This document shows positions 422-32,395 of a DNA stretch of 46,103 bases, piece by piece (the stretch's first letter is position 1; the number at the start of each line of letters is the position of its first letter). The DNA is taken from positions 1 to 46,103 of the IMG/VR virus record IMGVR_UViG_3300020470_000031; one strand, 5' to 3'. The position numbers and the translations under genes are program-made. The DNA comes from a virus. The notes beneath the pieces were generated by a model that was not told the DNA's origin, made no database searches, and was given only the letters and a program-made list of their open reading frames with translations.

Positions 422-1645
422 GATGGTGACACGGCACTTGCAACGGACTTTTCTGGGTTGAACGCCACATTTGAGGCGCAGGAAGATACCTTCTCTCTGG
501 ACTTTGGCAGTGAAAACTTTCAATCACCCGGCCCAACAAAGTCCGCTGAGGCTCTTGTTCTTCAAGAACGGAGTGCTGCCGCATCAGCAAACCTTGCGAT
601 CTCTCGGGACGTGTATAGCCTCACTGCTCGTGTCGGGGATGCAGAAGGTGCGATTACTGCTGAGAGCGAAGCTCGCGCCGACGACATCGGAGCCGTTACC
701 TCTTCGATAAACAGCCTCTCCAGCCGAGTTGGTGATGCTGAGGCGACGATCACCACCTACGGTCAGTCGATTGACGGACTGAGAGCGAGAGCGGGTGTCC
801 GCATCAACGCAAACGGCAGGGTAACCGGCTGGGAGGCCAACGATGACGGGGATGAAGGAAACTTTATTGTTACCTCGGACAACTTCGAAATTGAACCCTC
901 CAATCCAACTGGCCCAAGAACCCAGTTCAAGGACGGTTCTTGGAGAATCTATTCTGGGAGCATCATGACAGTATGGGGAACAGGATTTGGCTCTAGCGGG
1001 CAATTCTTGGAATGGACTGGTCCTGCCAGTTCGGACCTCTCTAATTGCACTGAAAACACTGCCATCAAATATGTGAAAGTGGATGGCTCGGCATACTTTG
1101 GAGGTACTCTTTCTGCGGGCGTCCTCAAAAACGCTGCTACCTCAACCAGCATTGCTTCAAATGCATCCATCTCTATCGGTCCGTTCGCTAGCCAAGGCGA
1201 TCCCATCAATGTGGTGACCAGCTATTCTATCATTAGCACTAATACTGCTACATATCCTGCAACGTCCCAAGGATCGACTAACTGGGAAAATGCCGTTACT
1301 GCTTGGGGCGCTACGGCAACTGGGTCATATGAAAGAACCGTTAATGCCTCCAAGTCTATCAGTTGCAATGTGGTGATTAAAGTGTCCCGAAATGGGGTAG
1401 CTAATTGGGCGACACTGAATATCACGTCGGGCAGTGAGACGATATCAGGTAGAGGTCCGTTGACTTCTGAGGGTATCTCGGGTAATCTGACCTATCGACG
1501 CACTATCGGAGGAACAATTACTTCCACAGATAACGTTGGAGGAACTACTACGAGAGAATTTACCGCCGTTATCGAAACAAGAACTGGCGCTGTTAATGGC
1601 ACCATCCAAAGTCAGACCCTAAGTCTAGTAGCTACAGAAGAGTAA
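2..1645 (+). CDS. Tail tip / central fibre protein (lambda J-like), C-terminal part
   Basis: The frame is open from the left edge (codon GAA at 2) to the TAA at 1645, so this is the C-terminal 547 residues of a larger gene; the ATG at 458 is internal. The first 140 residues are 32-residue repeats of the type EADILSEQQARIDGD...LTTRVGDT, with coiled-coil character. Residues after about 265 (RINANGRVTGWEAND..., IKYVKVDGSAYFGGTLSAG) resemble the DUF1983/J-protein C-terminal region of siphovirus tail-tip proteins, which contacts the host receptor. A Ser/Thr/Asn-rich beta-type end follows. It lies 4 nt upstream of another tail gene. Family assignment is from recognisable sequence style; receptor binding is inferred. 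Confidence 0.8.
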   Translation, partial: EADILSEQQARIDGDGALTTSLNALTTRVGDTEADILSEQQARIDGDSALTTSLNALTTRVGDTEADILSEQQARADGDSALTTSLNALTTRVGDTEADILSEQQARINGDGALTTSLNALTTRVGDTEADILSEQQARTDGDTALATDFSGLNATFEAQEDTFSLDFGSENFQSPGPTKSAEALVLQERSAAASANLAISRDVYSLTARVGDAEGAITAESEARADDIGAVTSSINSLSSRVGDAEATITTYGQSIDGLRARAGVRINANGRVTGWEANDDGDEGNFIVTSDNFEIEPSNPTGPRTQFKDGSWRIYSGSIMTVWGTGFGSSGQFLEWTGPASSDLSNCTENTAIKYVKVDGSAYFGGTLSAGVLKNAATSTSIASNASISIGPFASQGDPINVVTSYSIISTNTATYPATSQGSTNWENAVTAWGATATGSYERTVNASKSISCNVVIKVSRNGVANWATLNITSGSETISGRGPLTSEGISGNLTYRRTIGGTITSTDNVGGTTTREFTAVIETRTGAVNGTIQSQTLSLVATEE

Positions 1646-1649
1646 ACAA

Positions 1650-3284
1650 ATGACAAAAGCACCTCGCTCTCTCGAACAACTCCTCACTTTCTCCCGCGCT
1701 AGTGCTGCGGGGTATTTCGGGCGGGACGGTAAGTTCGTCTGGCAGCAGCCGAGCCGGAACCTGATTACCCAACCTCTCATGTCATGGCCGGGTATCTTGG
1801 GTTGGTCAAAGACTCCTGCGCCTGACGGCTCTCTGAGTGCCGTCGAGAGCTTTGAGGCGGACACCGGCTCGAATGTTTTTAACAGGATTTACCTGCTCAG
1901 TCAGCCTATGGTATCGTGCTTCTCAATTTTCATTAAGGCTCCTGAGCACAGATACGCTTTTCTCCGTAATCGCTCAAATAACAGTTACACTCACTTTGAC
2001 CTTCAAGCAGTCTCAGTGACAAAGGTAGATGATCCCGGAACCACACCCGCTATTGTTGAGCTCGGTGACGGTTGGTTCCGACTAAGTGCGGCTTGGTCTG
2101 CCGACGGCGGCTCGTCTCAGACAATCATGGTGGGGGTATCTGACTCATTGAACGGCACACAAGCCCTCGGTCAGGGCAGGTCCTTTGTAGCTTGGGGACC
2201 GCAACTCGAAGACGCAGACTTCCCCACCCCCTACGTCGCTCCCGGCTACTCCCCGCGCATCGAGTGGGGACCGGACGGGAAACGGAAGGGGCTGCTGATT
2301 GAGGGGTCGAGCACGAACCTACTCGCGGAAAGTGAGTTTCACAACGGTAAGCCCGCAAACGGCCACACCAGTTCTGTCACTGCGGTGTCGTCCTTCCCCG
2401 GTCTGACCCGAGGAACCGGTCTACACATGGCCCACGACCCGAATAACGCTCAGTGGGCTTACGCAACGGGTCTGACGTTTACGCCAAACACCGAATACAC
2501 GTTTTCGGCTTTCGTCGTTATGGACGACGGCAGCGCCCCCGAGATTTCCAGCGCGAGTAAGGACTTTAACGTTGTTGTGGCTGGCATCGGCGGAACCACC
2601 AAGGGCGTCGAACACATAGCAGGGGACCTCTACCGTGTGTGGGGAACCAGTAATGTAGGCAGTAGTCCGGGCGGCTCGGCAGGATTGTTCAAGGCCGCTG
2701 CAGATAGCACCAAGGGCTTCAAGTTCTCTGGCTACCAGCTTGAAACCAAGCCCTACGCCACCTCCTACATTCCCACGACGACCGCGCAGGTCACTCGGGC
2801 TGCTGATGTGGCGAAGATTGAGGGTGAAGCGTTCAAGAGTTGGTATAACCAAGGCGAAGGCACTGTATATGTCGAAGTGAGCTCTTTCTCCCCCGAAGGC
2901 TTCAAGGCAGTTCTGAATATCAATGACGGCACGTTGACCAATAGATTGGCCGACCTTTCAATCGGCGCGGGACCTTCAGGTGGGGTAGGAACGTTTCGCC
3001 TCGATGTTTTCAAAAATAACACTAATCAGGCATTTCTAGGCTCATCTAGGCCATTCACACTGGGCACCCGTGAGAAAGCCGCCTTTGGGTTCAAAGAAAA
3101 CGACTTCGCCTTCTGTCATAACGGTGCGGCGCCTACACTGGACAGTTCAGGAACGCCTCCGATTGTGGACAGGATGGAGTTGGGCAATCGTCTCGGAGCA
3201 CTCCAGCTCAACGGGTACATCAAAGACTTCCGCTTCTTCCCCAAGCGGCTCTCCAACGAAGCCCTCGTGGCTCTGACTTCCTAA
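1650..3284 (+). CDS. Tail-associated protein with carbohydrate-binding and LamG-like modules
   Basis: This 544-residue protein starts 4 nt after the tail-tip gene. The opening LEQLLTFSRASAAGYFGRDG is a common N-terminal signature of phage structural proteins that carry concanavalin/CBM-like jelly rolls. Two similar modules follow (about 35-195 and 225-385), each ending in a phrase of the type WGPQLEDADFPTPYV or GYQLETKPYATSYI. The C-terminus (NGYIKDFRFFPKRLSNEAL, about 520-540) is typical of a LamG-like domain. Such proteins are surface appendages that bind glycans. The exact virion location is not visible. Confidence 0.7.
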   Translation: MTKAPRSLEQLLTFSRASAAGYFGRDGKFVWQQPSRNLITQPLMSWPGILGWSKTPAPDGSLSAVESFEADTGSNVFNRIYLLSQPMVSCFSIFIKAPEHRYAFLRNRSNNSYTHFDLQAVSVTKVDDPGTTPAIVELGDGWFRLSAAWSADGGSSQTIMVGVSDSLNGTQALGQGRSFVAWGPQLEDADFPTPYVAPGYSPRIEWGPDGKRKGLLIEGSSTNLLAESEFHNGKPANGHTSSVTAVSSFPGLTRGTGLHMAHDPNNAQWAYATGLTFTPNTEYTFSAFVVMDDGSAPEISSASKDFNVVVAGIGGTTKGVEHIAGDLYRVWGTSNVGSSPGGSAGLFKAAADSTKGFKFSGYQLETKPYATSYIPTTTAQVTRAADVAKIEGEAFKSWYNQGEGTVYVEVSSFSPEGFKAVLNINDGTLTNRLADLSIGAGPSGGVGTFRLDVFKNNTNQAFLGSSRPFTLGTREKAAFGFKENDFAFCHNGAAPTLDSSGTPPIVDRMELGNRLGALQLNGYIKDFRFFPKRLSNEALVALTS

Positions 3285-23405: not shown

Positions 23406-24638
23406 TTATCCTTTAATGTTGACGATCTGACGAAGCGTGTGAACAACCTCAACTAGATCAGTTTGAGCGGACATCACTGCATCGATATCCTTATAGGCGG
23501 AAGGAGTTTCGTCCAAGGTAGACGCATCCACCCGAGCTTCAATTCCTTCCAGAGCTTTGGCGTGGTCCTCAAGGGATACCTGACGCTTAGCTTCTGACCT
23601 CGACATTACACGACCAGCGCCGTGGGAGCAAGAACAAAAACTATCCGCATTGCCAAGGCCACGAACGATGAACGACTTGGCTCCCATCGAACCGGGGATG
23701 ATGCCCATGTCGCCCTCACGAGCGCGGACAGCACCCTTACGGGTCACCCACACGTCCTCGCCAAAGTGGTGTTCACGTTCAGCGTAGTTATGGTGACAGT
23801 TGATGGCCTTCGCATCAAGCGTGAACGGGACTGGAAGGACGTCTCGAAGGGCCTGCAAGGTTCGATCAAGCATAATCTCTCGGTTAATCGAGGCGAAATC
23901 TTGCGCCCAAAGCATGGCTTCAACATAGTCATCAAAGTTCTCCGTGTGTTCGACGAGATAAGCCAAGTCCCCGTTAGGGAGATAGCTAGTGATGCGATAC
24001 TTTTCAGCTTCTTCCTTCGCCTTGTCGATGAAGTAGCGCCCGATAGCGTTGCCTACGCCTCGACTGCCACTGTGAAGCATGACCCAGACTCGGTCTTCAA
24101 GGTCAAGGCAGACTTCGATGAAATGATTTCCTCCACCAAGGCTTCCAAGGTGGTTGTAGGAATTACTCTTTCCGATTTTAGGATGTCTGTCAGTGATCTT
24201 CTCAAAACGTCCTTCAAGGTCGTGCCTCCAGCGACTTGCAACTGAGTTAGGTACGATTGACCAGCCGCCTTTGTCGTGGTTTTGCTTTCCATTTCCGGTG
24301 CGTCCATGAGGAACCTTCCTTTCGATTGCTGCTCGGATATGCCCGAGGCTGTCTGGTAGATCGTTGGCAGTGAGCGTAGTACGAACTGCACACATACCGC
24401 AGCCGATATCAACACCCACCGCACTAGGGATGATAGCCTTCTCAGTAGCGATTACACTACCGACCGTCGCCCCGTAACCGAGGTGGACATCGGGCATTCC
24501 TGCCACGTGCTTGAAGATCACAGGCAGAGCCGCAGTCTCATACAACTGCTGCATCGCCTGAGGCTCGAACTCAGCATGAGAGTTCCAGAGCTTGAGGTTC
24601 TTCCCGCCGAGCGGGTTTTCTACATAACTATACGACAT
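23406..24638 (-). CDS. rtcB: RNA-splicing ligase RtcB
   Basis: 410 residues with the full RtcB set: VGVDIGCGM (D77, C80), GSLGGGNHFIE (N171, H172), HSGSRGVG (H189), NCHHNYA (H282/283), IPGSMGAKSFIVRG and SCSHGAGRVMSR with the guanylated His H339. RtcB joins 2',3'-cyclic-phosphate (or 3'-phosphate) and 5'-OH RNA ends using GTP and Mn2+. Those are the ends left by anticodon nucleases and many toxins. It lies directly downstream of the tRNA array on the same strand, which suggests tRNA repair. Confidence 0.95.
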   Translation of the reverse strand: MSYSYVENPLGGKNLKLWNSHAEFEPQAMQQLYETAALPVIFKHVAGMPDVHLGYGATVGSVIATEKAIIPSAVGVDIGCGMCAVRTTLTANDLPDSLGHIRAAIERKVPHGRTGNGKQNHDKGGWSIVPNSVASRWRHDLEGRFEKITDRHPKIGKSNSYNHLGSLGGGNHFIEVCLDLEDRVWVMLHSGSRGVGNAIGRYFIDKAKEEAEKYRITSYLPNGDLAYLVEHTENFDDYVEAMLWAQDFASINREIMLDRTLQALRDVLPVPFTLDAKAINCHHNYAEREHHFGEDVWVTRKGAVRAREGDMGIIPGSMGAKSFIVRGLGNADSFCSCSHGAGRVMSRSEAKRQVSLEDHAKALEGIEARVDASTLDETPSAYKDIDAVMSAQTDLVEVVHTLRQIVNIKG

Positions 24639-24936: not shown

Positions 24937-25011
24937 TGGGGTGAAGTGGGGAATCGAACCCTCTCCTGCCGGGTCACATCCGGCCATGCTACCAATAACA
25001 CCAACAACACC
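24937..25011 (-). tRNA. tRNA-His(GTG)
   Basis: Anticodon arm GCCGG-ATGTGAC-CCGGC, T-arm GGGTTCGATTCCC, encoded CCA. An extra G at -1 faces C73, as in tRNA-His. The acceptor stem has two T:T mismatches (positions 4-69 and 5-68). Confidence 0.85.
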
Positions 25012-25212
25012 ATGATAACCCGCGTGACTGGGAGCCTTGCGTCAACAGCAGCGATTCTCTGGGCCAATCTTGCTCGTCAAGGCACTACCCTATCGGACAC
25101 AGAGGATTGTACCGCAATCGTCGGGGTACAACTGTCAAACCAGTCGGGCAAGAACACGGTTAGTAGCCGCCTCACTCGGTTAATCTGGCGCTCCCAGCCC
25201 CTCCTCGGAAAC
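25012..25212. other. 200-bp stretch without gene
   Basis: Between tRNA-Trp and tRNA-His. No ORF with a ribosome site and no tRNA fold is seen on either strand. One hairpin (TTGTACC / GGTACAA, 25107-25131) stands out. It may be spacer or an unrecognised small RNA. Confidence 0.4.
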
Positions 25213-25286
25213 TGGCAGAAGTGTAGGGATTCGAACCCTAGCGGTATGGTTTTGGAGACCAACCGACACAACCTGCGCTCACTCCT
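25213..25286 (-). tRNA. tRNA-Trp(CCA)
   Basis: Acceptor AGGAGTG pairs with CACTTCT, G73, encoded CCA; anticodon loop CTCCAAA. The D-arm is atypical and short (17 nt between acceptor and anticodon stems). Confidence 0.85.
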
Positions 25287-25287
25287 A

Positions 25288-25363
25288 TGGTCTAGGTAGA
25301 GAGATTCGAACTCCCGTCCCCGTGGTCCCAAACCACGTGCTTTAGCCACTAAGCTACACCTAG
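25288..25363 (-). tRNA. tRNA-Pro(TGG)
   Basis: C1-G72 and A73 as expected for Pro; anticodon arm CGTGG-TTTGGGA-CCACG; encoded CCA. One nucleotide from tRNA-Trp. Confidence 0.92.
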
Positions 25364-25365
25364 AC

Positions 25366-25443
25366 TGGCTGGTAGTACTGGACTCGAACCAGTCTCGTTC
25401 CTGATTAACAGTCAGGTGCCATCACCCGGACGACTCACTACCA
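25366..25443 (-). tRNA. tRNA-Asn(GTT)
   Basis: Acceptor TGGTAGT/ACTACCA, G73, encoded CCA; anticodon arm CCTGA-CTGTTAA-TCAGG. Two nucleotides from tRNA-Pro, so the primary transcript must be cut precisely. Confidence 0.93.
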
Positions 25444-25462
25444 TTGAATTTGTTTGAAATGT

Positions 25463-25542
25463 TGGTTGCGGGAGCGGGATTTGAACCCGCGTATGTCAGC
25501 GGTTATGAGCCGCCCGAGATAACCTGACTCCTCTACCCCGCA
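25463..25542 (-). tRNA. Initiator-like tRNA-Met(CAT)
   Basis: Starts TGCGGGG and ends CCCGCAACCA, very like bacterial initiator tRNA, with loop CTCATAA and initiator-type T-loop TTCAAAT. But position 1 is T (pairs with A72) instead of the usual C1:A72 mismatch, and the anticodon stem is GGCGG/CCGCT rather than three G:C pairs in a row of the same orientation. 80 nt, with a 7-nt variable loop. Confidence 0.85.
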
Positions 25543-25566
25543 ACAGGGTGATGGGGGGAGTGTTAG

Positions 25567-25680
25567 TTAGTCCCGCCATCCTTCACGCATGGGATGTCGC
25601 ACCCATGCGGGAGTATTGGGTCGGTGACTAAGGCCACCCCAACCGTCTGCGTCAGCGATGTTATTCAGCACGTTACGCAT
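25567..25680 (-). CDS. 37-aa hypothetical peptide
   Basis: MRNVLNNIADADGWGG... ends MREGWRD. The ribosome site GGAG is 7 nt before the ATG. It is the first ORF after the promoter at 25766-25794 and precedes the five-tRNA cluster. A hairpin region (25704-25755) forms its leader. Unknown function; could be a leader peptide. Confidence 0.5.
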   Translation of the reverse strand: MRNVLNNIADADGWGGLSHRPNTPAWVRHPMREGWRD

Positions 25681-25703
25681 TTTCTAACTCCAATAGGTTG
25701 GTT

Positions 25704-25755
25704 GGGCCGAAGGTGGTTCACCGCGATCATGAAGGAGATTGAGGTCCTTCGGCCC
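25704..25755 (-). promoter_or_regulatory. Leader hairpin between promoter and tRNA cluster
   Basis: GGGCCGAAGG and CCTTCGGCCC form a perfect 10-bp stem closing a 32-nt loop. It begins about 5 nt after the expected transcription start of the promoter at 25766-25794, so the 5' end of this transcript is structured. Confidence 0.55.
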
Positions 25756-25765
25756 GATGGATGAT

Positions 25766-25794
25766 CATATAGACGAGCTATTTTTTCTTGTCAA
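25766..25794 (-). promoter_or_regulatory. Sigma70-type promoter, TTGACA-N17-TATATG
   Basis: TTGACA at 25789-25794, exact 17-nt spacer, TATATG at 25766-25771. The spacer ends GCTCGTC, nearly the same as the promoter at 28923-28951 (CCTCGTC). It should transcribe the 37-aa ORF, five tRNAs and possibly rtcB. Confidence 0.85.
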
Positions 25795-26065
25795 GCCACT
25801 TCTTGATGGCCTCTTCCGCTACCTCTTCCAAACCAGCGCCACCATTGTACCAATACAACAGAAGCTGAGGCTTTTCCGAAGGAGGAACTACGGCGGCGAA
25901 CCCGTAGGAGTCTACTGTCAGTAGGGATTCTATGCTGTAGTAGTCTCCCCCGACGGCTACAAGGGTCAGGTTCAGACGTTCACCAGCTTCGTAGGCATCC
26001 TCATCTTCGAGAAGCTCTCCTTCAAACTTGGTGAAGGTCCCATAGAAGAATTCCATTTCACTCAT
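25778..26065 (-). CDS. Hypothetical protein
   Basis: 95 residues, acidic N-terminal half, Lys-rich C-terminus (EEAIKKWLDKKK). Its stop lies within the downstream promoter spacer. It overlaps the phosphoesterase gene by 8 nt. No family recognised. Confidence 0.65.
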   Translation of the reverse strand: MSEMEFFYGTFTKFEGELLEDEDAYEAGERLNLTLVAVGGDYYSIESLLTVDSYGFAAVVPPSEKPQLLLYWYNGGAGLEEVAEEAIKKWLDKKK

Positions 26066-26591
26066 TGATAATCTCCATCAAATCGACAGGCTTGAAGTCC
26101 GTCTGTTCCAGACTTACGCAGCGATAGCGTTCGTCGGGACATTTCAAATCCTCAGGAAGGAGGTAATCCCCATCCTGATACCTGTCATCTACCTGCACTT
26201 GATACTCATGCAGGTGACCATGTACATTAAGCTTCCAGCGCCCCATGCTCTGGGGATGGATCGGAATGTGAGACATGATCAGGTCGTGCTTCGGCTTCAC
26301 GATGTAAGCTCTTATGTCCTCGAAGTGAGGGAGATAGTCTTTGAGCTTGAAGATATCGTGATTCCCTTTTACTAGTACCTTCTTTCCGTTGCATCGTGAT
26401 ATGGTTCCTACGTGTCTGCGGTTCATGCACAAGTCTCCGAGGACGTACACACGGTCCTGCGGAGCTACAAGGCTGTTCCAGTTTTCGATGATTGCTTCGT
26501 CGTGTTCTTCAATCGTATCCCACGGTCGAAGCTTTGCCATTAGTTGGTGGCCGAAGTGCGTGTCAGCCGTGACCCACGTTCGCTTTGACAT
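26058..26591 (-). CDS. Calcineurin-like metallophosphoesterase
   Basis: 177 residues with the metal-binding set WVTADTHFGH (D10, H12), VYVLGDLC, VKGNHD, MSHIPIH and NVHGHLHE. This is a compact YfcE/phage-type phosphoesterase. Possible substrates include cyclic nucleotides or RNA 2',3'-cyclic phosphates; none can be chosen from sequence. It lies in the tRNA region, so a role in RNA end processing is a possibility only. Confidence 0.85.
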   Translation of the reverse strand: MSKRTWVTADTHFGHQLMAKLRPWDTIEEHDEAIIENWNSLVAPQDRVYVLGDLCMNRRHVGTISRCNGKKVLVKGNHDIFKLKDYLPHFEDIRAYIVKPKHDLIMSHIPIHPQSMGRWKLNVHGHLHEYQVQVDDRYQDGDYLLPEDLKCPDERYRCVSLEQTDFKPVDLMEIINE

Positions 26592-26937
26592 TTAGATTTC
26601 CTTTCGCCTCTGCCAAGAGTTGGTCGTGCATCTGCTTGGCGGTGCTGTTGTGCCACTCCTTCATAGCACTGTAGCCCTCTTCAAATGCTGCCTTGAGCAT
26701 CAGGGCCTGTTGCTTGAGTTTTGTATCGTTTCTCATGCTGCTTTCCTTGAAATGATCGTCAAACCAAAATATACCACACCAACCGAGCCTGTCTGCACCT
26801 TTCTCAGAAGTTCCGAAGTGAATGAACCCGCAGCTGCGCCCTGCTTCTGGCTTATCACTAGTTTCCGCGTCGTAACAATAGACTCTGCCATACTTAGGAT
26901 GATAGAACCACCCCGGAATTTTTTCATGAAGTTTCAT
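26563..26937 (-). CDS. Hypothetical protein
   Basis: 124 residues; aromatic N-terminal half (IPGWFYHPKYGRVYCYDAE) and helical C-terminal half. The start overlaps the previous gene's stop (TGATG) and the end overlaps the phosphoesterase start by 29 nt. Family unknown. Confidence 0.7.
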   Translation of the reverse strand: MKLHEKIPGWFYHPKYGRVYCYDAETSDKPEAGRSCGFIHFGTSEKGADRLGWCGIFWFDDHFKESSMRNDTKLKQQALMLKAAFEEGYSAMKEWHNSTAKQMHDQLLAEAKGNLNVKANVGHG

Positions 26938-27104
26938 CAGACTTCCTTTCTAGGCTCAAGAGTGTAGGTGCCATCACCGTTGTCGGTCCAAGTCACACTC
27001 TTCATTTCGCCCCACTCTTCAACAAGTTCAAGAGGCAGACGCAGATACGGCATACCATCTGCGTCCTTGTCTACCCATTGGCTATAATGTGGTCCTTGTC
27101 TCAT
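26937..27104 (-). CDS. 55-aa hypothetical protein
   Basis: MRQGPHYSQWVDKDADGMPY... ends TYTLEPRKEV. The ribosome site AAAGGAAA precedes the ATG, and the stop overlaps the next ATG by 1 nt (TGATG). The LRLPLELVEEWG stretch looks like a SpoVT/AbrB-type strand-helix, but this is weak. Confidence 0.65.
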   Translation of the reverse strand: MRQGPHYSQWVDKDADGMPYLRLPLELVEEWGEMKSVTWTDNGDGTYTLEPRKEV

Positions 27105-27161
27105 AACTTTTTCCTTTCTGAAACTCGACCCAAAATCTTCTGAAAAATTTTAGCAAAAATC

Positions 27162-27236
27162 TGGATGCCCCTGCTGGATTCGAACCAGCGTTAAGAGCTT
27201 CAAAGGCTCCGGTCCTACCACTAGACGAAGGGGGCA
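27162..27236 (-). tRNA. tRNA-Gln(TTG)
   Basis: T1-A72 as in Gln tRNAs, loop CTTTGAA, T-arm GCTGG-TTCGAAT-CCAGC, encoded CCA; position 7-66 is a C:A mismatch. Confidence 0.9.
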
Positions 27237-27241
27237 GTAAT

Positions 27242-27316
27242 TGGATGCCCGCCAAGGGTTCGAACCTTGAATAGCTGATTCAGAGTCAACCGTGTTACCA
27301 GTTACACCAACGGGCA
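27242..27316 (-). tRNA. tRNA-Gln(CTG)
   Basis: Acceptor TGCCCGT/GCGGGCA, T73, encoded CCA; anticodon arm GTTGA-CTCTGAA-TCAGC. Acceptor and discriminator resemble tRNA-Gln(TTG), suggesting duplication. Confidence 0.92.
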
Positions 27317-27319
27317 TTA

Positions 27320-27396
27320 TGGTCCTCCGGGTGAGATTCGAACTCACGATCTACCTCTTATGAGGAGGCAGCTTTCGACCGCTAAGCTACCGGAGA
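27320..27396 (-). tRNA. tRNA-Met(CAT) or Ile2(CAT)
   Basis: Acceptor TCTCCGG/CCGGAGG (T1:G72 wobble), A73, encoded CCA; anticodon arm GCCTC-CTCATAA-GAGGT. The CAT anticodon could be elongator Met or lysidine-modified Ile. Confidence 0.88.
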
Positions 27397-27399
27397 GTC

Positions 27400-27475
27400 T
27401 GGAGCGGATACCGAGATTCGAACTCGGACCATCAGCTTGGAAGGCTGTTATGCTGCCGTTAAACACCATACCCGC
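27400..27475 (-). tRNA. tRNA-Gly(TCC)
   Basis: Acceptor GCGGGTA/TATCCGC, T73, encoded CCA; loop CTTCCAA; T-arm CCGAG-TTCGAAT-CTCGG. Its 5' end abuts the stop of the HNH gene at 27476. Confidence 0.93.
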
Positions 27476-27841
27476 TCAATTTCTAACTTGCGAACGATAC
27501 CTAGTGTCTCTCTCATGAGTGACTCTTCGGTGACAGTTCGCACACCGTATCTCACACTTGGCTATTTCTTCCTTCACCTTTTTAAGTGACCTATAGAGGC
27601 TGGTAGCTCTAGCCATAGTAAACTTTTTCTCGCCCCGCACATGATCGAAGTCCAGAACTATTGGGTCGTCCTCCTCACAATCTACACAGGGATTATTGCT
27701 CTTATAGTCCCAGATAAACTGCTTCACCTTTAAGCGACCCTCTGCTCTCTCCTTATTAACTTTTTCTCTTCTGCTATCCTTATTCTTATGATACCAGTCT
27801 AATGCGGCTTGTCGCTGCTTCTCTTTATCTTTGTATGCCAT
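27476..27841 (-). CDS. HNH endonuclease inside the tRNA array
   Basis: 121 residues. Lys/Arg-rich N-terminus, then HNH zinc core NPCVDCEEDD, LDFDHVRGEKKF and EIRCANCHRRVTHER. Free-standing homing-type nuclease. The stop codon touches tRNA-Gly, so it shares a transcript with the four tRNAs downstream. Confidence 0.88.
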   Translation of the reverse strand: MAYKDKEKQRQAALDWYHKNKDSRREKVNKERAEGRLKVKQFIWDYKSNNPCVDCEEDDPIVLDFDHVRGEKKFTMARATSLYRSLKKVKEEIAKCEIRCANCHRRVTHERDTRYRSQVRN

Positions 27842-27847
27842 GCAATT

Positions 27848-27876
27848 GCATTACAATAAGTTCTAGTCTCAGTCAA
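27848..27876 (-). promoter_or_regulatory. Promoter of the HNH gene and tRNA-Gly/Met/Gln cluster
   Basis: TTGACT (27871-27876), 17-nt spacer, TAATGC (27848-27853); ATG follows 6 nt later at 27841, so the mRNA is probably leaderless. A 10-bp palindrome TGCAATTGCA overlaps the start region. Confidence 0.5.
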
Positions 27877-27895
27877 GAGAACTTGAACTAAAACG

Positions 27896-27972
27896 TGGCG
27901 CGAACGAAGAGATTTGAACTCTCGTCTCCTCGCGTGACAGGCGAGTGCTTTAGGCCGCTAAGCTACGTTCGC
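27896..27972 (-). tRNA. tRNA-Asp(GTC)
   Basis: Acceptor GCGAACG/CGTTCGC, G73, encoded CCA; anticodon arm CTCGC-CTGTCAC-GCGAG. Confidence 0.94.
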
Positions 27973-27978
27973 AAAACT

Positions 27979-28053
27979 TGGTGGATCGTCAGGGATTCGA
28001 ACCCTGACTTTCGGCTTGCAACACCGACGTGCTCCCGTTAACACTAACAACCC
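27979..28053 (-). tRNA. tRNA-Ala(TGC)
   Basis: Acceptor GGGTTGT/ACGATCC with the Ala identity pair G3:T70, A73, encoded CCA; anticodon arm TCGGT-GTTGCAA-GCCGA. Confidence 0.93.
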
Positions 28054-28060
28054 ACTATTC

Positions 28061-28136
28061 TGGCGCGGAAAGATGGAATCGAACCACCGACACGCGAGGC
28101 TTCAACTCGCTGCTCTACACACTGAGCTACTTCCGC
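28061..28136 (-). tRNA. tRNA-Phe(GAA)
   Basis: Acceptor GCGGAAG/TTTCCGC, encoded CCA; anticodon arm GCGAG-TTGAAGC-CTCGC. Discriminator is G73 rather than the usual A73. Confidence 0.92.
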
Positions 28137-28139
28137 AAT

Positions 28140-28310
28140 TCAAATACTTAAATCTATCTCTGTCCCATTTCCATCTTCAATATCTTTTTTAACTTTAGCT
28201 ACCATTCGCAGCAGCTCTATCTTCGAGAGTTTATGCCCCTCTGGTCCTAGAGTGACGTGAATGTATTCACCCTGCCTCTTGCGAACGACTACTGTGTCCA
28301 TGTCTGCCAT
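28140..28310 (-). CDS. 56-aa hypothetical protein within the tRNA cluster
   Basis: MADMDTVVVRKRQGEYIHVT... ends TEIDLSI. AGGAGACC lies just before the ATG, and the stop is 4 nt from tRNA-Phe. Basic N-terminal beta stretch, helical middle (KLSKIELLRMVAKVKKDI). Unknown. Confidence 0.65.
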   Translation of the reverse strand: MADMDTVVVRKRQGEYIHVTLGPEGHKLSKIELLRMVAKVKKDIEDGNGTEIDLSI

Positions 28311-28324
28311 AACGGTCTCCTAAT

Positions 28325-28399
28325 TGGTGCCGGATCAAGGACTTGAACCCTGTTCTTCTGCTTACAAGGCAGCTGCATCACCATTATTGCTCATCCGGC
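28325..28399 (-). tRNA. tRNA-Thr(TGT)
   Basis: Acceptor GCCGGAT/ATCCGGC, A73, encoded CCA; loop CTTGTAA; T-arm CAGGG-TTCAAGT-CCTTG. Confidence 0.93.
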
Positions 28400-28407
28400 A
28401 TTAAACT

Positions 28408-28488
28408 TGGAGCGCCCGGCAGGACTCGAACCCGCATCTTCCTCCAGTTACCTTACTCTTCGTTCGTAGCGAAGGTGGTTACGGACGC
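28408..28488 (-). tRNA. tRNA-Arg(ACG) lacking a recognisable D-arm
   Basis: Acceptor GCGTCCG/CGGGCGC, T73, encoded CCA, T-arm GCGGG-TTCGAGT-CCTGC and anticodon arm CTTCG-CTACGAA-CGAAG are all good. But only 7 nt (TAACCAC) separate acceptor and anticodon stems, and 22 nt lie between the anticodon and T stems. tRNA-Arg(TCT) at 29863 has the same plan. Confidence 0.7.
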
Positions 28489-28495
28489 ATTAAAC

Positions 28496-28570
28496 TGGTA
28501 GCCACTGAGAGATTTGAACTCCCGACGCCCTGCGTGTAAAACAGGCGCTCTACCCCTGAGCTAAGCGGCT
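28496..28570 (-). tRNA. tRNA-Val(TAC)
   Basis: Acceptor AGCCGCT/AGTGGCT, A73, encoded CCA; anticodon arm CCTGT-TTTACAC-GCAGG. Confidence 0.93.
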
Positions 28571-28575
28571 ATGTT

Positions 28576-28653
28576 TGGTCGTCCCAGAGGGATTCGAACC
28601 CCCGACACAGCGATTATCGGTCGCTTGCTCTGGCCAGACTGAGCTATGGGACA
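28576..28653 (-). tRNA. tRNA-Ile(GAT) with C33
   Basis: Acceptor TGTCCCA/TGGGACG (T1:G72), A73, encoded CCA. Anticodon arm AGCGA-CCGATAA-TCGCT: the residue before the anticodon is C, not the nearly universal T33. Confidence 0.88.
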
Positions 28654-28684
28654 CTGAAACTCTTTTACTCTCCTATTTAATTCT

Positions 28685-28759
28685 TGGTCCCCCCGAGGGG
28701 AATCGAACCCCTATTCCAACATTGAAAGTGTCGTGTCTTAGCCATTAGACGACGGGGAG
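28685..28759 (-). tRNA. tRNA-Glu(TTC)
   Basis: Acceptor CTCCCCG/CGGGGGG, A73, encoded CCA; anticodon arm CGACA-CTTTCAA-TGTTG. First tRNA after the promoter at 28923. Confidence 0.92.
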
Positions 28760-28823
28760 TCATCTACTGCCAAGAACAAACTTCAATTGTGGATTGAGGG
28801 TGTTGTTACTTAGACTAGTAGAT

Positions 28824-28913
28824 TCAGGCTTGCTGAATCTCTCGTTCGCGCACGACGACGCCACCGCGTGTCGCGGCTCCGGTCATATCAATAAAGGCGA
28901 ACTGGCTAGTCAT
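28824..28913 (-). CDS. Possible 29-aa leader peptide
   Basis: MTSQFAFIDMTGAATRGG... ends REREIQQA. The ATG lies 9 nt after the -10 box of the promoter at 28923, so it could be read from a nearly leaderless transcript; no ribosome site is seen. A hairpin GATTCAG-CAAGC-CTGAATC covers its stop. The rest of 28760-28922 shows nothing else. Confidence 0.3.
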   Translation of the reverse strand: MTSQFAFIDMTGAATRGGVVVREREIQQA

Positions 28914-28922
28914 AGTCTGGTC

Positions 28923-28951
28923 CATATAGACGAGGTTTAATCGTCTGTCAA
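28923..28951 (-). promoter_or_regulatory. Sigma70-type promoter, TTGACA-N17-TATATG
   Basis: TTGACA at 28946-28951, 17-nt spacer ending CCTCGTC, TATATG at 28923-28928. It should drive the tRNA-Glu to tRNA-Asp cluster. Confidence 0.85.
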
Positions 28952-29098
28952 TAGCCTAAAATCCTCTTCAGGATATTTTTTAATGTGCGCTTCGGCCTCG
29001 GTCAGAGATTCAAAGCCTTGAGTGAGCCTTCGGTTACTGTCGCATATAGTCCTGTAGGGCATCAAGGCCCATGCTGGGATAACATTGTTCCAACTCAT
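28937..29098 (-). CDS. 53-aa hypothetical protein
   Basis: From the ATG at 29098 (AAAGGA upstream): MSWNNVIPAWALMPYRTICD... ends EDFRLLTDD. It contains a segment like SPOR/short DUF strands (GFESLTEAEAHIKKYPEEDFRLL). It follows tRNA-Cys by 21 nt. Unknown. Confidence 0.6.
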   Translation of the reverse strand: MSWNNVIPAWALMPYRTICDSNRRLTQGFESLTEAEAHIKKYPEEDFRLLTDD

Positions 29099-29119
29099 GA
29101 TTTTCCTTTCCAAAAATAG

Positions 29120-29196
29120 TGGAGCGCCGAGTCGGGATCGAACCGACATGTTCCAGCTTTGCAGGCTGGCGCGATTTCCAAATCCGCCACCGACGC
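29120..29196 (-). tRNA. tRNA-Cys(GCA)
   Basis: Acceptor GCGTCGG/TCGGCGC, T73 (the Cys identity base), encoded CCA; anticodon arm CCAGC-CTGCAAA-GCTGG. Confidence 0.93.
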
Positions 29197-29206
29197 TTAG
29201 TTTAAC

Positions 29207-29283
29207 TGGTAGACCTGTCGGGACTCGAACCCGAATCTCTCAACTTAAAAGGATGGCGCACTCACCTATTGTGCTACAGGTCT
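29207..29283 (-). tRNA. tRNA-Lys(TTT)
   Basis: Acceptor AGACCTG/CAGGTCT, A73, encoded CCA; loop CTTTTAA. The anticodon stem CCATC/GTTGA has two mismatches (27:43 C:A and 30:40 T:T), unusual for a functional tRNA. Confidence 0.85.
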
Positions 29284-29285
29284 AC

Positions 29286-29361
29286 GGTTGTCCCGATGGG
29301 ATTCGAACCCATGTCTCGTCCCTTATGAGGGGAGGGCACTAGACCACTGTGCTACGGGACG
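29286..29361 (-). tRNA. tRNA-Met/Ile2(CAT) with C1:A72 mismatch
   Basis: Acceptor CGTCCCG/CGGGACA, A73, anticodon arm CTCCC-CTCATAA-GGGAC, T-arm ATGGG-TTCGAAT-CCCAT. The 3' end reads ACC-G, so CCA is not fully encoded. Its first 23 nt overlap the 3' end of the HNH ORF at 29339-29743. Confidence 0.82.
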
Positions 29362-29743
29362 CTCGTTTATAGTTCTTATGGTATTCGTTATTCGCCTTTC
29401 GGCACAAATCGCATTTACAATGCCGGTAACCCGAAAGCGTACCGTGTCTCCACCGCTGTAATCCTTTCTCATGGATTGACTTAGTTTCATGGCAATATCG
29501 GCAACGTAGGACACATTTCTCTATCTCTCTCGCTAACCTATCATTGGCCATTGAAGAGAAGGCTTTAGCTATGTCAAAGCTCTTCGAGGTTCTATCCTCA
29601 TGATCAAATTCCAGATCGTCTTTAGAGTTACAGTCTATGCATTGCCCACCCAGCTTTTCAATAGCTTCCGATCTACGACGATGATACCGCTTCAACATAT
29701 AGTCAGCCATGTAGGCGTTATATTCTTCTCGGGTCTTTTTCAT
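29339..29743 (-). CDS. HNH endonuclease overlapping a tRNA
   Basis: 134 residues. Zinc HNH core: GGQCIDCNSKDDLEFDHEDRTSKSF and VLRCRYCHETKS, then a second Cys pair HCKCDLCRKAN. Basic throughout. Its C-terminal codons (SRSTVV) run into tRNA-Met. Same family style as the HNH at 27476, but with an extra zinc knuckle. Confidence 0.85.
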   Translation of the reverse strand: MKKTREEYNAYMADYMLKRYHRRRSEAIEKLGGQCIDCNSKDDLEFDHEDRTSKSFDIAKAFSSMANDRLAREIEKCVLRCRYCHETKSIHEKGLQRWRHGTLSGYRHCKCDLCRKANNEYHKNYKRASRSTVV

Positions 29744-29750
29744 AGTAAAG

Positions 29751-29779
29751 CATATAGATTTTTAATTTTAGATTGTCAA
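29751..29779 (-). promoter_or_regulatory. Promoter TTGACA-N17-TATATG of the HNH gene
   Basis: TTGACA at 29774-29779, 17-nt spacer, TATATG at 29751-29756. The HNH ATG is 7 nt beyond the -10 box, at about the expected +1, so the mRNA is probably leaderless. Confidence 0.85.
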
Positions 29780-29782
29780 GAG

Positions 29783-29858
29783 TGGTAGACCCATCCGGAC
29801 TTGAACCGGAATCTCGCTGATTAAGAGTCAGGCGCACGACCAATTGTGCTATGGGTCT
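29783..29858 (-). tRNA. tRNA-Lys(CTT)
   Basis: Acceptor AGACCCA/TGGGTCT, A73, encoded CCA; anticodon arm CCTGA-CTCTTAA-TCAGC (27:43 C:C mismatch). Closely related to tRNA-Lys(TTT) in acceptor and D-arm. Confidence 0.92.
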
Positions 29859-29862
29859 AAAC

Positions 29863-29944
29863 TGGAACCCCGAGTGGGATTCGAACCCACATTTTCAACT
29901 CCATTACCGATAATAGGGTAGAAGCCTAAACGGGTTATCGGGGT
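29863..29944 (-). tRNA. tRNA-Arg(TCT) lacking a recognisable D-arm
   Basis: Acceptor ACCCCGA/TCGGGGT, T73, encoded CCA, T-arm GTGGG-TTCGAAT-CCCAC, anticodon arm TTAGG-CTTCTAC-CCTAT. Only 8 nt (TAACCCGT) precede the anticodon stem, and 22 nt containing GGTAATGGAG follow it, as in tRNA-Arg(ACG). Confidence 0.68.
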
Positions 29945-30945: not shown

Positions 30946-30969
30946 TCTAGTATTCCTTTACATGGTTGA

Positions 30970-31212
30970 ACTAAGTGCCGAGTTCTGTTTCAAGGCCCCG
31001 GCTGGCCCATGCATTCAGCCCTTAGGCTGCGATGCGAAGTGCAGTTTCCTGCGAGTTATCATTTGCGGTTGTTTTCCGAGCTTTTCAAGGCAGCAACGCC
31101 TATAGTCTCATAACCTTCTCTCTGCTCCGTCGATTCCCATATCACCCACATAACTGGTGTAGGTGCCGGGGTTTGAACCCGGGTCCGTGAGGTTCGATAA
31201 TGTTAGTCACCG
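30970..31212 (-). ncRNA. ssrA: Circularly permuted tmRNA
   Basis: Reading on the minus strand, the tRNA-like 3' half comes first: T-arm CCGGG-TTCAAAC-CCCGG, acceptor CACCTAC, A73, CCA (31155-31157). After a 5-nt linker comes the 5' half GTGGGTG...GGAATCGAC, then the tag frame (31066 to 31022) GCA AAT GAT AAC ... TAA = ANDNSQETALRIAA. The acceptor halves pair with the Ala identity G3:U70. This is the split, two-piece alphaproteobacterial form that rescues stalled ribosomes and tags nascent proteins for proteolysis. Outer ends are approximate. Confidence 0.88.
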
Positions 31213-31213
31213 A

Positions 31214-31750
31214 CTATTCTTTAATCTCTTTAATGATTCTCCATCCCTTCCACTCTCCACGCTTAGGCCCAGCGGTGCTGTTTCTGTACGCAGCGTATAA
31301 GTTACTCCAGCGTTTTCCCAAAGAGCGAGAGAATTTATAGCTACTCTCAACTATGATTTTAGTTCTATCGGGTTTCTCGACCAGCCACTTCTTTCTATTG
31401 TGGCCTCCGATATTCGAGTTACCTCGGTTAGCGTGACCATTTCCTCCAGCGGAAGACCTCTTCACGTTGTAGTACCGTACTGTCCCCTCTCGAACGTTGG
31501 TCGAGGTCAATAGCTCATGCGAGTCTATCTTGTCAAGCCATTTTTGTTCTGCGGCTCGTACGTCTTGTGTGTCCCCCTCTACAAACTCCAAGACTCGGAA
31601 CCTAAATGTCTCGGGTCTTTTACTATACGCGGCCATCATGGTTTTGGATGAGGACACGTAAGAATCCTCGGGTTTTCCTACGTGTCCTCCCACATAATAC
31701 CAGCCTAGCAGAGTGTCCCACCAGATGTATATGTATCCAATTTTATTCAT
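31214..31750 (-). CDS. GIY-YIG homing endonuclease
   Basis: 178 residues. GIY-YIG core: KIGYIYIWWDTLLGWYYVGGH (GYIYI...YYVG), R-containing FRFRVLEFVE and catalytic E in AAEQKWLDKI. The C-terminal part (NRGNSNIGGHNRKKWLVE, then SRSLGKRWSNLYAAYRN) looks like NUMOD-type DNA-binding modules. It sits directly upstream of the tmRNA gene. A strong promoter and inverted repeat cover its start. Confidence 0.9.
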   Translation of the reverse strand: MNKIGYIYIWWDTLLGWYYVGGHVGKPEDSYVSSSKTMMAAYSKRPETFRFRVLEFVEGDTQDVRAAEQKWLDKIDSHELLTSTNVREGTVRYYNVKRSSAGGNGHANRGNSNIGGHNRKKWLVEKPDRTKIIVESSYKFSRSLGKRWSNLYAAYRNSTAGPKRGEWKGWRIIKEIKE

Positions 31751-31790
31751 AAACGCAAATTAGTTTAAGTTTGCGTTTATGTCATGTCAA
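31748..31790 (-). promoter_or_regulatory. Promoter with overlapping operator-like inverted repeat
   Basis: TTGACA (31785-31790), 17-nt spacer, TAAACT (31762-31767). A 12-bp perfect inverted repeat (CATAAACGCAAA / TTTGCGTTTATG, 31748-31759 and 31770-31781) flanks the -10 box and includes the ATG of the GIY-YIG gene. A protein bound here would block its transcription. Confidence 0.75.
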
Positions 31791-32395
31791 CCGTCGTCAA
31801 CCTCTTTTATCTCAACTCCGTCCAGAGCAATTTCAAAGTCGGGGTACTTTTCCTTGAGCCGAACGATGCGATTGATCGACGACCCGAGTGCGCTCTTACT
31901 CGCACACCGACGAACATTCAGCAACTTATTGGCACTGTCGCTCTTGAACTCTTCTGAGATATCAAGATAGTGACCGTCGTAGGTGATCCTACAGATACCC
32001 ATATCGAACCGAAGGTGAATCCGGTCCGTTCTCCAGTTGACGAAGATAAGCTGCACCGGCAGGCCGGTCTCGTTTCTGCCGGGGTAATCCTGAACGAGGA
32101 TAACCTCCTGCATGCTCTCTGGGTAGGCTCCACCGTTTTCGTCCATGTCGGCAAGATCAGCGAGGCCATAATGGCAATTTCCGAAAGCGTCGGGAACTTC
32201 CCCACCCAGTAGCTTGAACAGACCCCAAGCCTCCTGCTCTCCGCCTGCTTCGATGAAGATATCGATGTCCTTGACAGGCACACCATGATAGAGGTCTCGA
32301 AGGGCACCACCAGAGATTACTGCTGAGGGGCACACGTTCTGGATATCATCCAGAACGTGCAGCCAGCCTACTGGAATGTCGTGGACATCAATCAT
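31787..32395 (-). CDS. Nucleotidyltransferase-fold protein (pol beta superfamily)
   Basis: 202 residues. VISGGALRDLYHGVPVKDIDIF has the GG...RD...D-x-D pattern of the class II CCA-adding enzyme/poly(A) polymerase head domain. It lacks the RNA-binding C-terminal domains of cellular CCA enzymes. In a genome with a tRNA whose CCA is incomplete, a tRNA-related role is possible but not shown. It overlaps its upstream gene by 8 nt. Confidence 0.7.
   Translation of the reverse strand: MIDVHDIPVGWLHVLDDIQNVCPSAVISGGALRDLYHGVPVKDIDIFIEAGGEQEAWGLFKLLGGEVPDAFGNCHYGLADLADMDENGGAYPESMQEVILVQDYPGRNETGLPVQLIFVNWRTDRIHLRFDMGICRITYDGHYLDISEEFKSDSANKLLNVRRCASKSALGSSINRIVRLKEKYPDFEIALDGVEIKEVDDG

Follow-up and report, generated by a model that had tools for sequence, protein, structure and literature searches.

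A circularly permuted tmRNA gene on a phage contig

We identified a circularly permuted tmRNA gene on the minus strand of the window (the whole stretch of DNA analyzed, 46,103 nt), extending from 31218 to approximately 30965. With a probability of about 85% we consider it an intact and presumably functional two-piece phage tmRNA, which lies in a putative translation-support island together with about 20 tRNAs and an RtcB gene. A preliminary description of this DNA had proposed a phage-borne permuted tmRNA that encodes a tag of its own; it named the lack of a match to permuted tmRNA models as part of the refuting outcome. The full RF04321 model (tmRNA_permuted) matches 31218–31022 (minus strand) with 74.6 bits, well above the cut-off of 47, and an E-value of 1.3e-12, calculated over the entire 46,103-base window and all 4227 Rfam families; the search was repeated on the local stretch. 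By reading the strand base by base we found all of the claimed elements, which bears out the proposal, including the alanine-specific G3:U70 pair (31147 opposite 31161). The locus had been placed correctly at 30970–31212, although the gene is slightly longer, starting at about 31218 and with a 3' knot that reaches to about 30977 or beyond. Along the minus strand, a P2 strand is followed by the T-arm, acceptor 3' strand, CCA, GTTAT, acceptor 5' strand and D-loop, which contains GGAATCGAC, and then by the P2 partner, PK1, the tag and the 3' knot. The elements and their neighbors are as follows:

31155–31218 (5' end approximate), minus strand: acceptor piece with the P2 3'-half, T-arm, acceptor 3' strand and encoded CCA (RF04321 and sequence)
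30965–31149 (3' end approximate), minus strand: coding piece (RF04321 and sequence)
31212–31217, minus strand: P2, acceptor-piece strand AUAGUC, containing the TAG (31216–31214) of the upstream ORF (sequence)
31166–31182, minus strand: T-arm CCGGG-UUCAAAC-CCCGG with an elongator-tRNA-like T-loop (sequence)
31159–31165, minus strand: acceptor stem 3' strand CACCUAC, U70 at 31161 (sequence and RF04321)
31158, minus strand: discriminator A (sequence)
31157–31155, minus strand: encoded CCA (sequence)
31150–31154, minus strand: intervening segment GTTAT, 5 nt, presumably removed from the mature two-piece RNA (sequence)
31143–31149, minus strand: acceptor stem 5' strand GUGGGUG, G3 at 31147 (sequence and RF04321)
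31102–31107, minus strand: P2, coding-piece strand GACUAU (sequence)
31080–31101, minus strand: pseudoknot PK1, stem 1 AGGC/GCCU (RF04321 alignment) and stem 2 GCU/AGC (by eye)
31022–31066, minus strand: tag frame ANDNSQETALRIAA (31066–31025) and stop codon TAA (31024–31022) (sequence)
30977–31007, minus strand: candidate 3' pseudoknot, GGCC/GGCC and GCCG/CGGC, with AACAGAA at 30989–30983 (sequence)
31214–31750, minus strand: ORF of a GIY-YIG-like (homing-type) endonuclease, directly adjoining the tmRNA and overlapping it (motif and weak matches)
31787–32395, minus strand: nucleotidyltransferase, phrog_1614, with a weak match to the PolyA_pol head, immediately upstream of the GIY-YIG-like ORF
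24938–29944, minus strand: tRNA array with HNH endonuclease ORFs, downstream of the tmRNA (19 tRNAs by ARAGORN; 22 by RF00005, including one below the cut-off)
23406–24638, minus strand: RtcB-type RNA ligase (homology)

The acceptor stem GUGGGUG/CACCUAC comprises 7 bp including G3:U70, and the distance from G1 to the resume codon is 83 nt. The AACAGAA motif is also present in the RF01849 consensus and in the genes of two sister phages described below. For stem 2 of PK1 and the 3' knot, both of them short, the pairing was assessed by eye. Minimum-energy folding of the whole RNA, with pseudoknots left out, produced competing long-range pairings, and these folds were discarded as evidence; promoter and terminator scans around the gene yielded nothing better than shuffled sequences. 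As the RF04321 score is far below the 130–167 bits observed for chromosomal genes, the window gene has diverged; ARAGORN called 19 tRNAs in the window and missed the tmRNA.

Genome context and sister phages

The window, an IMG/VR virus contig, codes for a family A DNA polymerase, ribonucleotide reductase, ThyX, an RIIA-type protein, DNA ligase, helicase and RtcB. Named phages of 77–85 kb whose polymerases are related, at 35–40% identity, include Caulobacter phage Seuss (40%), Achromobacter phage JWF and Xylophilus phage Lumi. IMG/VR contigs carry related polymerases with 90, 70, 69 and 53% identity, and one relative at 53% sits in a Sphingopyxis flava contig. From this kinship in polymerase and gene content it follows that the tmRNA is phage-borne, and the contig can be assigned by homology to a Seuss/JWF-like phage, of which it is a fragment. 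The phage kinship (Seuss, the Sphingopyxis contig) together with an alpha-type gene in one sister phage suggests an alphaproteobacterial host; other polymerase relatives infect beta- and gammaproteobacteria. Among named phages no close DNA relative of the locus or of the tmRNA was found, and a search with the nucleotidyltransferase as query returned one distant locus. At the edge of the contig (1–470) we observed in-frame tandem repeats (EADILSEQQARxDGDxALTTSLNALTTRVGDT) of a large tail-like protein that runs off the contig.

We searched the first 15 relative records with the RF04321 cut-off and found permuted tmRNAs in two sister phages, G002 (polymerase identity 90%, 94.4 bits) and G003 (70%, 100.7 bits), while G005, G006 and G013 (52–53%) contain neither a tmRNA nor tRNA arrays. 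Both sister genes lie between homologs of the window nucleotidyltransferase and tRNA arrays, with a homolog of the DNA ligase nearby. The nucleotidyltransferase, with its weak PolyA-polymerase/CCA-adding head, thus adjoins the tmRNA in all three phages (L018, about 890–1479; L017, about 1740–2371, minus strand), and a role in RNA-end maintenance is possible. No RtcB homolog was found in the sister phages.

Comparing the three genes, we observed compensatory changes in P1, the T-stem, P2 and both stems of PK1, judged by eye from three sequences and without a statistical test. P1 varies between U2-A71 and G2-C71 and between U6-A67 and C6-G67, and the T-stem remains paired despite changes on both strands. 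P2 reads GACUAU/AUAGUC in the window and GGUUGU/ACAAUC in L017; stem 1 of PK1 occurs as AGGC/GCCU, AGGU/ACCU and GAGC/GCUU, and stem 2 as GCU/AGC, GAU/AUC and GGCU/AGCC. The tags ANDNSQETALRIAA (window), VNDNQPEMALRLAA and ANDNDMPVMKMAIAA share the NDN start and the AA end with a drifting middle, as expected for a coding tag under selection. Taken together, the compensatory changes and the preserved tag frame are good evidence, at the level of sequence comparison, that these genes function as tag-encoding tmRNAs.

The gene of G003 (IMGVR 2830687482_000006 = JAGVDA010000266.1, L017) occupies the same site as the window gene and shares its UUCRA-type T-loop. It has a 4-nt linker instead of 5 nt and a 14-aa tag ending in LRLAA instead of LRIAA, and it differs further in a Val at the first tag position and in the lack of an upstream endonuclease. 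It was also the best BLAST match of the window tmRNA among all fetched tmRNAs (68.9% over 148 nt), a search that revealed no clear host source. The same record (L020, 75,082 bp), a contig the size of a whole phage, is binned in a Thermosynechococcus MAG, which is probably a binning error. The gene of G002 (IMGVR 3300025126_000016, L018) has the site, the neighbors and the 3' end of the coding piece in common with the window, but carries an alpha-type T-loop (GGCAGUA; RF01849 100.6 bits), an 88-nt linker and the 15-aa tag ANDNDMPVMKMAIAA. This linker (L018:1562–1649) folds like a tRNA, with an RF00005 score of 25.1 bits against a cut-off of 29 (E-value 1.9e-4; G002:52943–53017) and a fold energy 3.6 sd below shuffled sequences. 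ARAGORN called no tRNA in it, and we regard it as a tRNA-like segment rather than a tRNA gene. One case of a tRNA-Ala gene within the intervening segment of a permuted tmRNA has been reported, from a nominally archaeal genome (PMC11915505).

Sub-type, linker and upstream endonuclease

The preliminary description had assigned the gene to the split form of alphaproteobacteria. The permuted order, the AACAGAA motif, the 83-nt spacing and the alpha-type sister gene agree with this, but the check it had proposed, RF01849 (alpha_tmRNA), did not reach the gathering score of 50 bits in the window, and the T-loop is UUCAAAC. RF01850 (beta_tmRNA) scored 43.2 bits against a cut-off of 84. Because both models remain below their cut-offs and the T-loop is UUCAAAC, we classify the gene as a permuted tmRNA of uncertain sub-type. 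In alphaproteobacterial chromosomes all 39 parsed genes have the T-loop GGC[AG]GUA, although these come from top-scoring loci and are not an even sample, so that GGC[AG]GUA denotes what recurs there and not a published definition. Among 115 viral T-loops most are of the GGC[AG]GUA type, about 33 of a UGC type and 5 of a UUCGA type. The canonical T-loop also led us to consider a beta-type origin; RF01850 found no gene above the cut-off in the phylum sample and hence provided no betaproteobacterial reference set.

Our first pattern scan of IMG/VR for permuted tmRNAs gave at least 120 matches. The 5-nt linker had been described as unusual; we found, however, about ten further viral loci, with several unrelated tags, in which the linker measures 3–5 nt (the pattern admitted 2–32 nt, and linker frequencies cannot be derived from it), and in sister G003 it measures 4 nt. 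The window gene does have a short linker, yet is not unique in this.

An endonuclease directly upstream had been pointed out as well. The ORF does abut the tmRNA, but it is absent from this site in both G002 and G003 and is GIY-YIG-like by motif and weak matches only: Pfam PF01541 matches the N-terminal part with an E-value of 1.2, and a search of the PDB gave no match. Its N-terminal half shows 35–41% identity to phage HNH and putative homing endonucleases (E-values down to 8e-14), and it resembles endonucleases from Sinorhizobium and Rhizobium phages. Since its stop codon TAG (31216–31214) falls within the P2 strand AUAGUC (31217–31212), the endonuclease has inserted right against the acceptor piece. 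In the tRNA array of the window, HNH ORFs have likewise been inserted, and such insertions are ordinary for tRNA arrays of phages.

Proposed role and alternative explanations

In the proposed mechanism, host tRNA-processing enzymes would cut the precursor at the 5-nt linker, giving an acceptor and a coding piece held together by P1 and P2, and host alanyl-tRNA synthetase would charge this RNA via G3:U70. Host SmpB and EF-Tu would then deliver it to ribosomes that, in the infected cell, have stalled on mRNA that is broken or codon-starved. There ANDNSQETALRIAA would be added to the nascent chain, ClpXP-type proteases of the host would receive the tagged product, and the ribosome could return to phage translation. 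A search of 12 phage records for SmpB found none, so the RNA presumably relies on the SmpB of the host. A viral tmRNA would naturally be of use if ribosomes in infected cells stall because mRNA decays or tRNAs are cleaved, and the nearby tRNAs and RtcB would fit this scenario; E. coli RtcB is reported to ligate broken tmRNA (PMC9650030). The tmRNA beside a tRNA array and an RNA-repair ligase points to ribosome and tRNA damage during infection. At the RF04321 cut-off, a permuted tmRNA is present in 272 of the 289 alphaproteobacterial genomes searched; if the host is an alphaproteobacterium, the viral copy would thus be additive. The host very likely encodes a tmRNA as well. The viral gene then most likely serves to raise the dosage, or to stand in for a host copy that is damaged or limiting, and not to fill a missing function. 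Viral rescue RNAs of this kind bear on the question of why phages should require trans-translation although almost all hosts already possess it.

The tag bears on a further possibility, namely that it is tuned to avoid degradation or to use other proteases or adaptors than the host tag. It ends in LRIAA and is unlike every sampled alphaproteobacterial tag (endings: 29 LAA, 9 VAA, 1 IAA and 1 MAA), and the tags of all three sisters differ from each other. However, the hydrophobic residue and Ala-Ala are retained, -IAA ends also occur on alphaproteobacterial chromosomes (ANDNEMAIAA, ANDNYAEARLIAA) and, as YAIAA, in other phage tmRNAs, and the middle of the tag varies freely among bacteria as well. 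We therefore consider a swapped tag function unlikely. In other viral tmRNAs we observed unusually long tags (L107, L344 and L364; L092, L096, L128 and L137), e.g. ANDNVAQPKFMKKRNTFARKVGFTKGMALAA and ANDNALSNVTFVDFSAPVTAVNEDFALAA. A tag-like frame, ANDNSNMDYALAA, followed by AACAGAA lies directly after a tRNA-Arg in L304 (near 1501–1593, minus strand; G499), with no recognizable tRNA-like domain around it; this is perhaps a degraded or split tmRNA.

Instead of ribosome rescue, the RNA could mainly be a decoy that, by titrating SmpB or the tmRNA function of the host, suppresses trans-translation. Such a role has been proposed for the TLD-only tmRNA of mycobacteriophage DS6A, whose expression in E. 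coli inhibits the cell's own tmRNA (PMC11915505; PMC4131195). A decoy, however, would need no tag frame, stop codon, PK1 or P2, whereas in the window gene PK1, P2 and an open tag frame with its stop are all preserved, and both sisters keep the tag frame, which makes this explanation distinctly improbable. We give similarly little weight, and slightly less, to the idea that the tmRNA is unused cargo acquired with a chromosomal tDNA site, e.g. by imprecise excision: integration often targets the tmRNA genes of hosts, fragments of which are carried by prophages (PMC9004378), but here the gene shows no decay, its structure is kept at one site in three phages with 70–90% polymerase identity, it lies in a tRNA array with no adjoining integrase, BLAST revealed no close chromosomal source among the sampled genomes, and the compensatory changes argue against it. 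Finally, ARAGORN makes no call, and RF04321 weakly matches standard tmRNAs and tRNAs in controls, as one would see for a chance tRNA-like fold or a misread ordinary tRNA. We assign practically no probability to such a misreading in view of the 74.6 bits over the full model (E-value 1.3e-12), the permuted order, and the tag frame with its stop, and we rejected it as refuted by the sister genes at the same site.

Short permuted tmRNAs apparently lacking PK1 in viral contigs

The distance from G1 to the resume codon is 83–87 nt in all 44 chromosomal genes. In viruses it falls into two groups of 43–50 and 80–87 nt with few genes outside. The short-spacing pattern (43–49 nt) was found in 81 viral contigs, 54 of them distinct, examples being L376:5274–5532, L345:1120–1422, L131:5901–6166, L358:247–5 (minus strand) and L300–L303 near 1500, the last four being polymerase relatives of the window. 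In alphaproteobacteria it matched none of 385 genomes, which, as exact patterns undercount, does not prove absence in bacteria; the same pattern at full spacing matched 48 of 96. All eight of the miniature genes that we checked exceeded the cut-offs of both RF04321 and RF01849. Most miniatures retain P2 as GUCUUC/GAAGAU with covarying forms (GUCUAC/GUAGAU, GUUUAC/GUAGAC), the AACAG motif follows the tag in 59 of 61, and TATAAATA, which resembles a T4 late promoter, lies upstream of 40 of 61. A spacing of 43–49 nt leaves no room for PK1, which is apparently missing, and the miniatures are predicted to consist of P1, T-arm, P2, tag and 3' knot only, a make-up that we did not find in the sampled alphaproteobacterial genomes. 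With 83 nt and PK1 present, the window gene is not of this class.

Two-piece tmRNAs typically retain PK1 and PK2, and plastid tmRNAs have few or no pseudoknots (PMC3985003); in a narrow literature search we found no published description of the miniature class. If the miniatures are active, PK1 would be dispensable in a natural bacterial-type tag-encoding tmRNA. In this respect they outweigh the window gene in interest, as the need for PK1 becomes directly testable. At the fixed site of the window lineage the T-loop type switches and the linker is either 4–5 nt or the 88-nt tRNA-like insert. Tentatively, and with less than even confidence, phage permuted tmRNAs might be seen as a fast-evolving set of their own rather than as borrowed host genes, with switching of T-loop and linker and, in many, deletion of PK1.

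Comparison with known tmRNAs

Compared with the alphaproteobacterial two-piece tmRNA (RF01849, Caulobacter type), the window gene has the same permuted order, a spacing within 83–87 nt, the ANDN tag start and the 3' AACAGAA, but differs in the T-loop and in its 5-nt linker, linkers in the sampled chromosomes being 10–48 nt long. We found permuted tmRNAs above the RF04321 cut-off also in three cultured phages, Mesorhizobium phage Cp1R7A-A1 (L380), Erythrobacter phage vB_EliS-L02 (L381) and Xanthomonas phage Rb1 (L382), in none of which the tmRNA site bears an annotation. Unlike the window gene they have linkers of 88–107 nt and other tags, and they belong to larger, otherwise different phages. 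Xanthomonads have a one-piece tmRNA, and the permuted form of Rb1 would therefore differ from that of its host.

Phages account for 79 unique sequences in the current tmRNA database (PMC11915505), and a survey of 18,146 phage genomes reported ssrA in 402, with 133 unique structures of which 53 are two-piece, 50 of these being marine or aquatic (PMC9004378). The SsrA of Methylophilales phage Melnitz (MZ577097; PMC9004378) resembles the window gene in its permuted order, CCA, G3:U70, ANDN... tag and AACAGAA, and in a spacing from G1 to the resume codon of 82 nt versus 83. In contrast to the window gene it has an alpha-type T-loop (RF01849 106.7 bits), a 142-nt linker and a downstream glutamine riboswitch, and Melnitz is a T4-like myophage, whereas the window gene lies next to a tRNA array. 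The window locus is real, intact and ordinary in kind, its few local peculiarities being the T-loop type, the tRNA-like linker in one sister and the endonuclease stop codon within P2. With phage-borne two-piece tmRNAs as such already published for Melnitz (PMC9004378), it is new as a clean further case.
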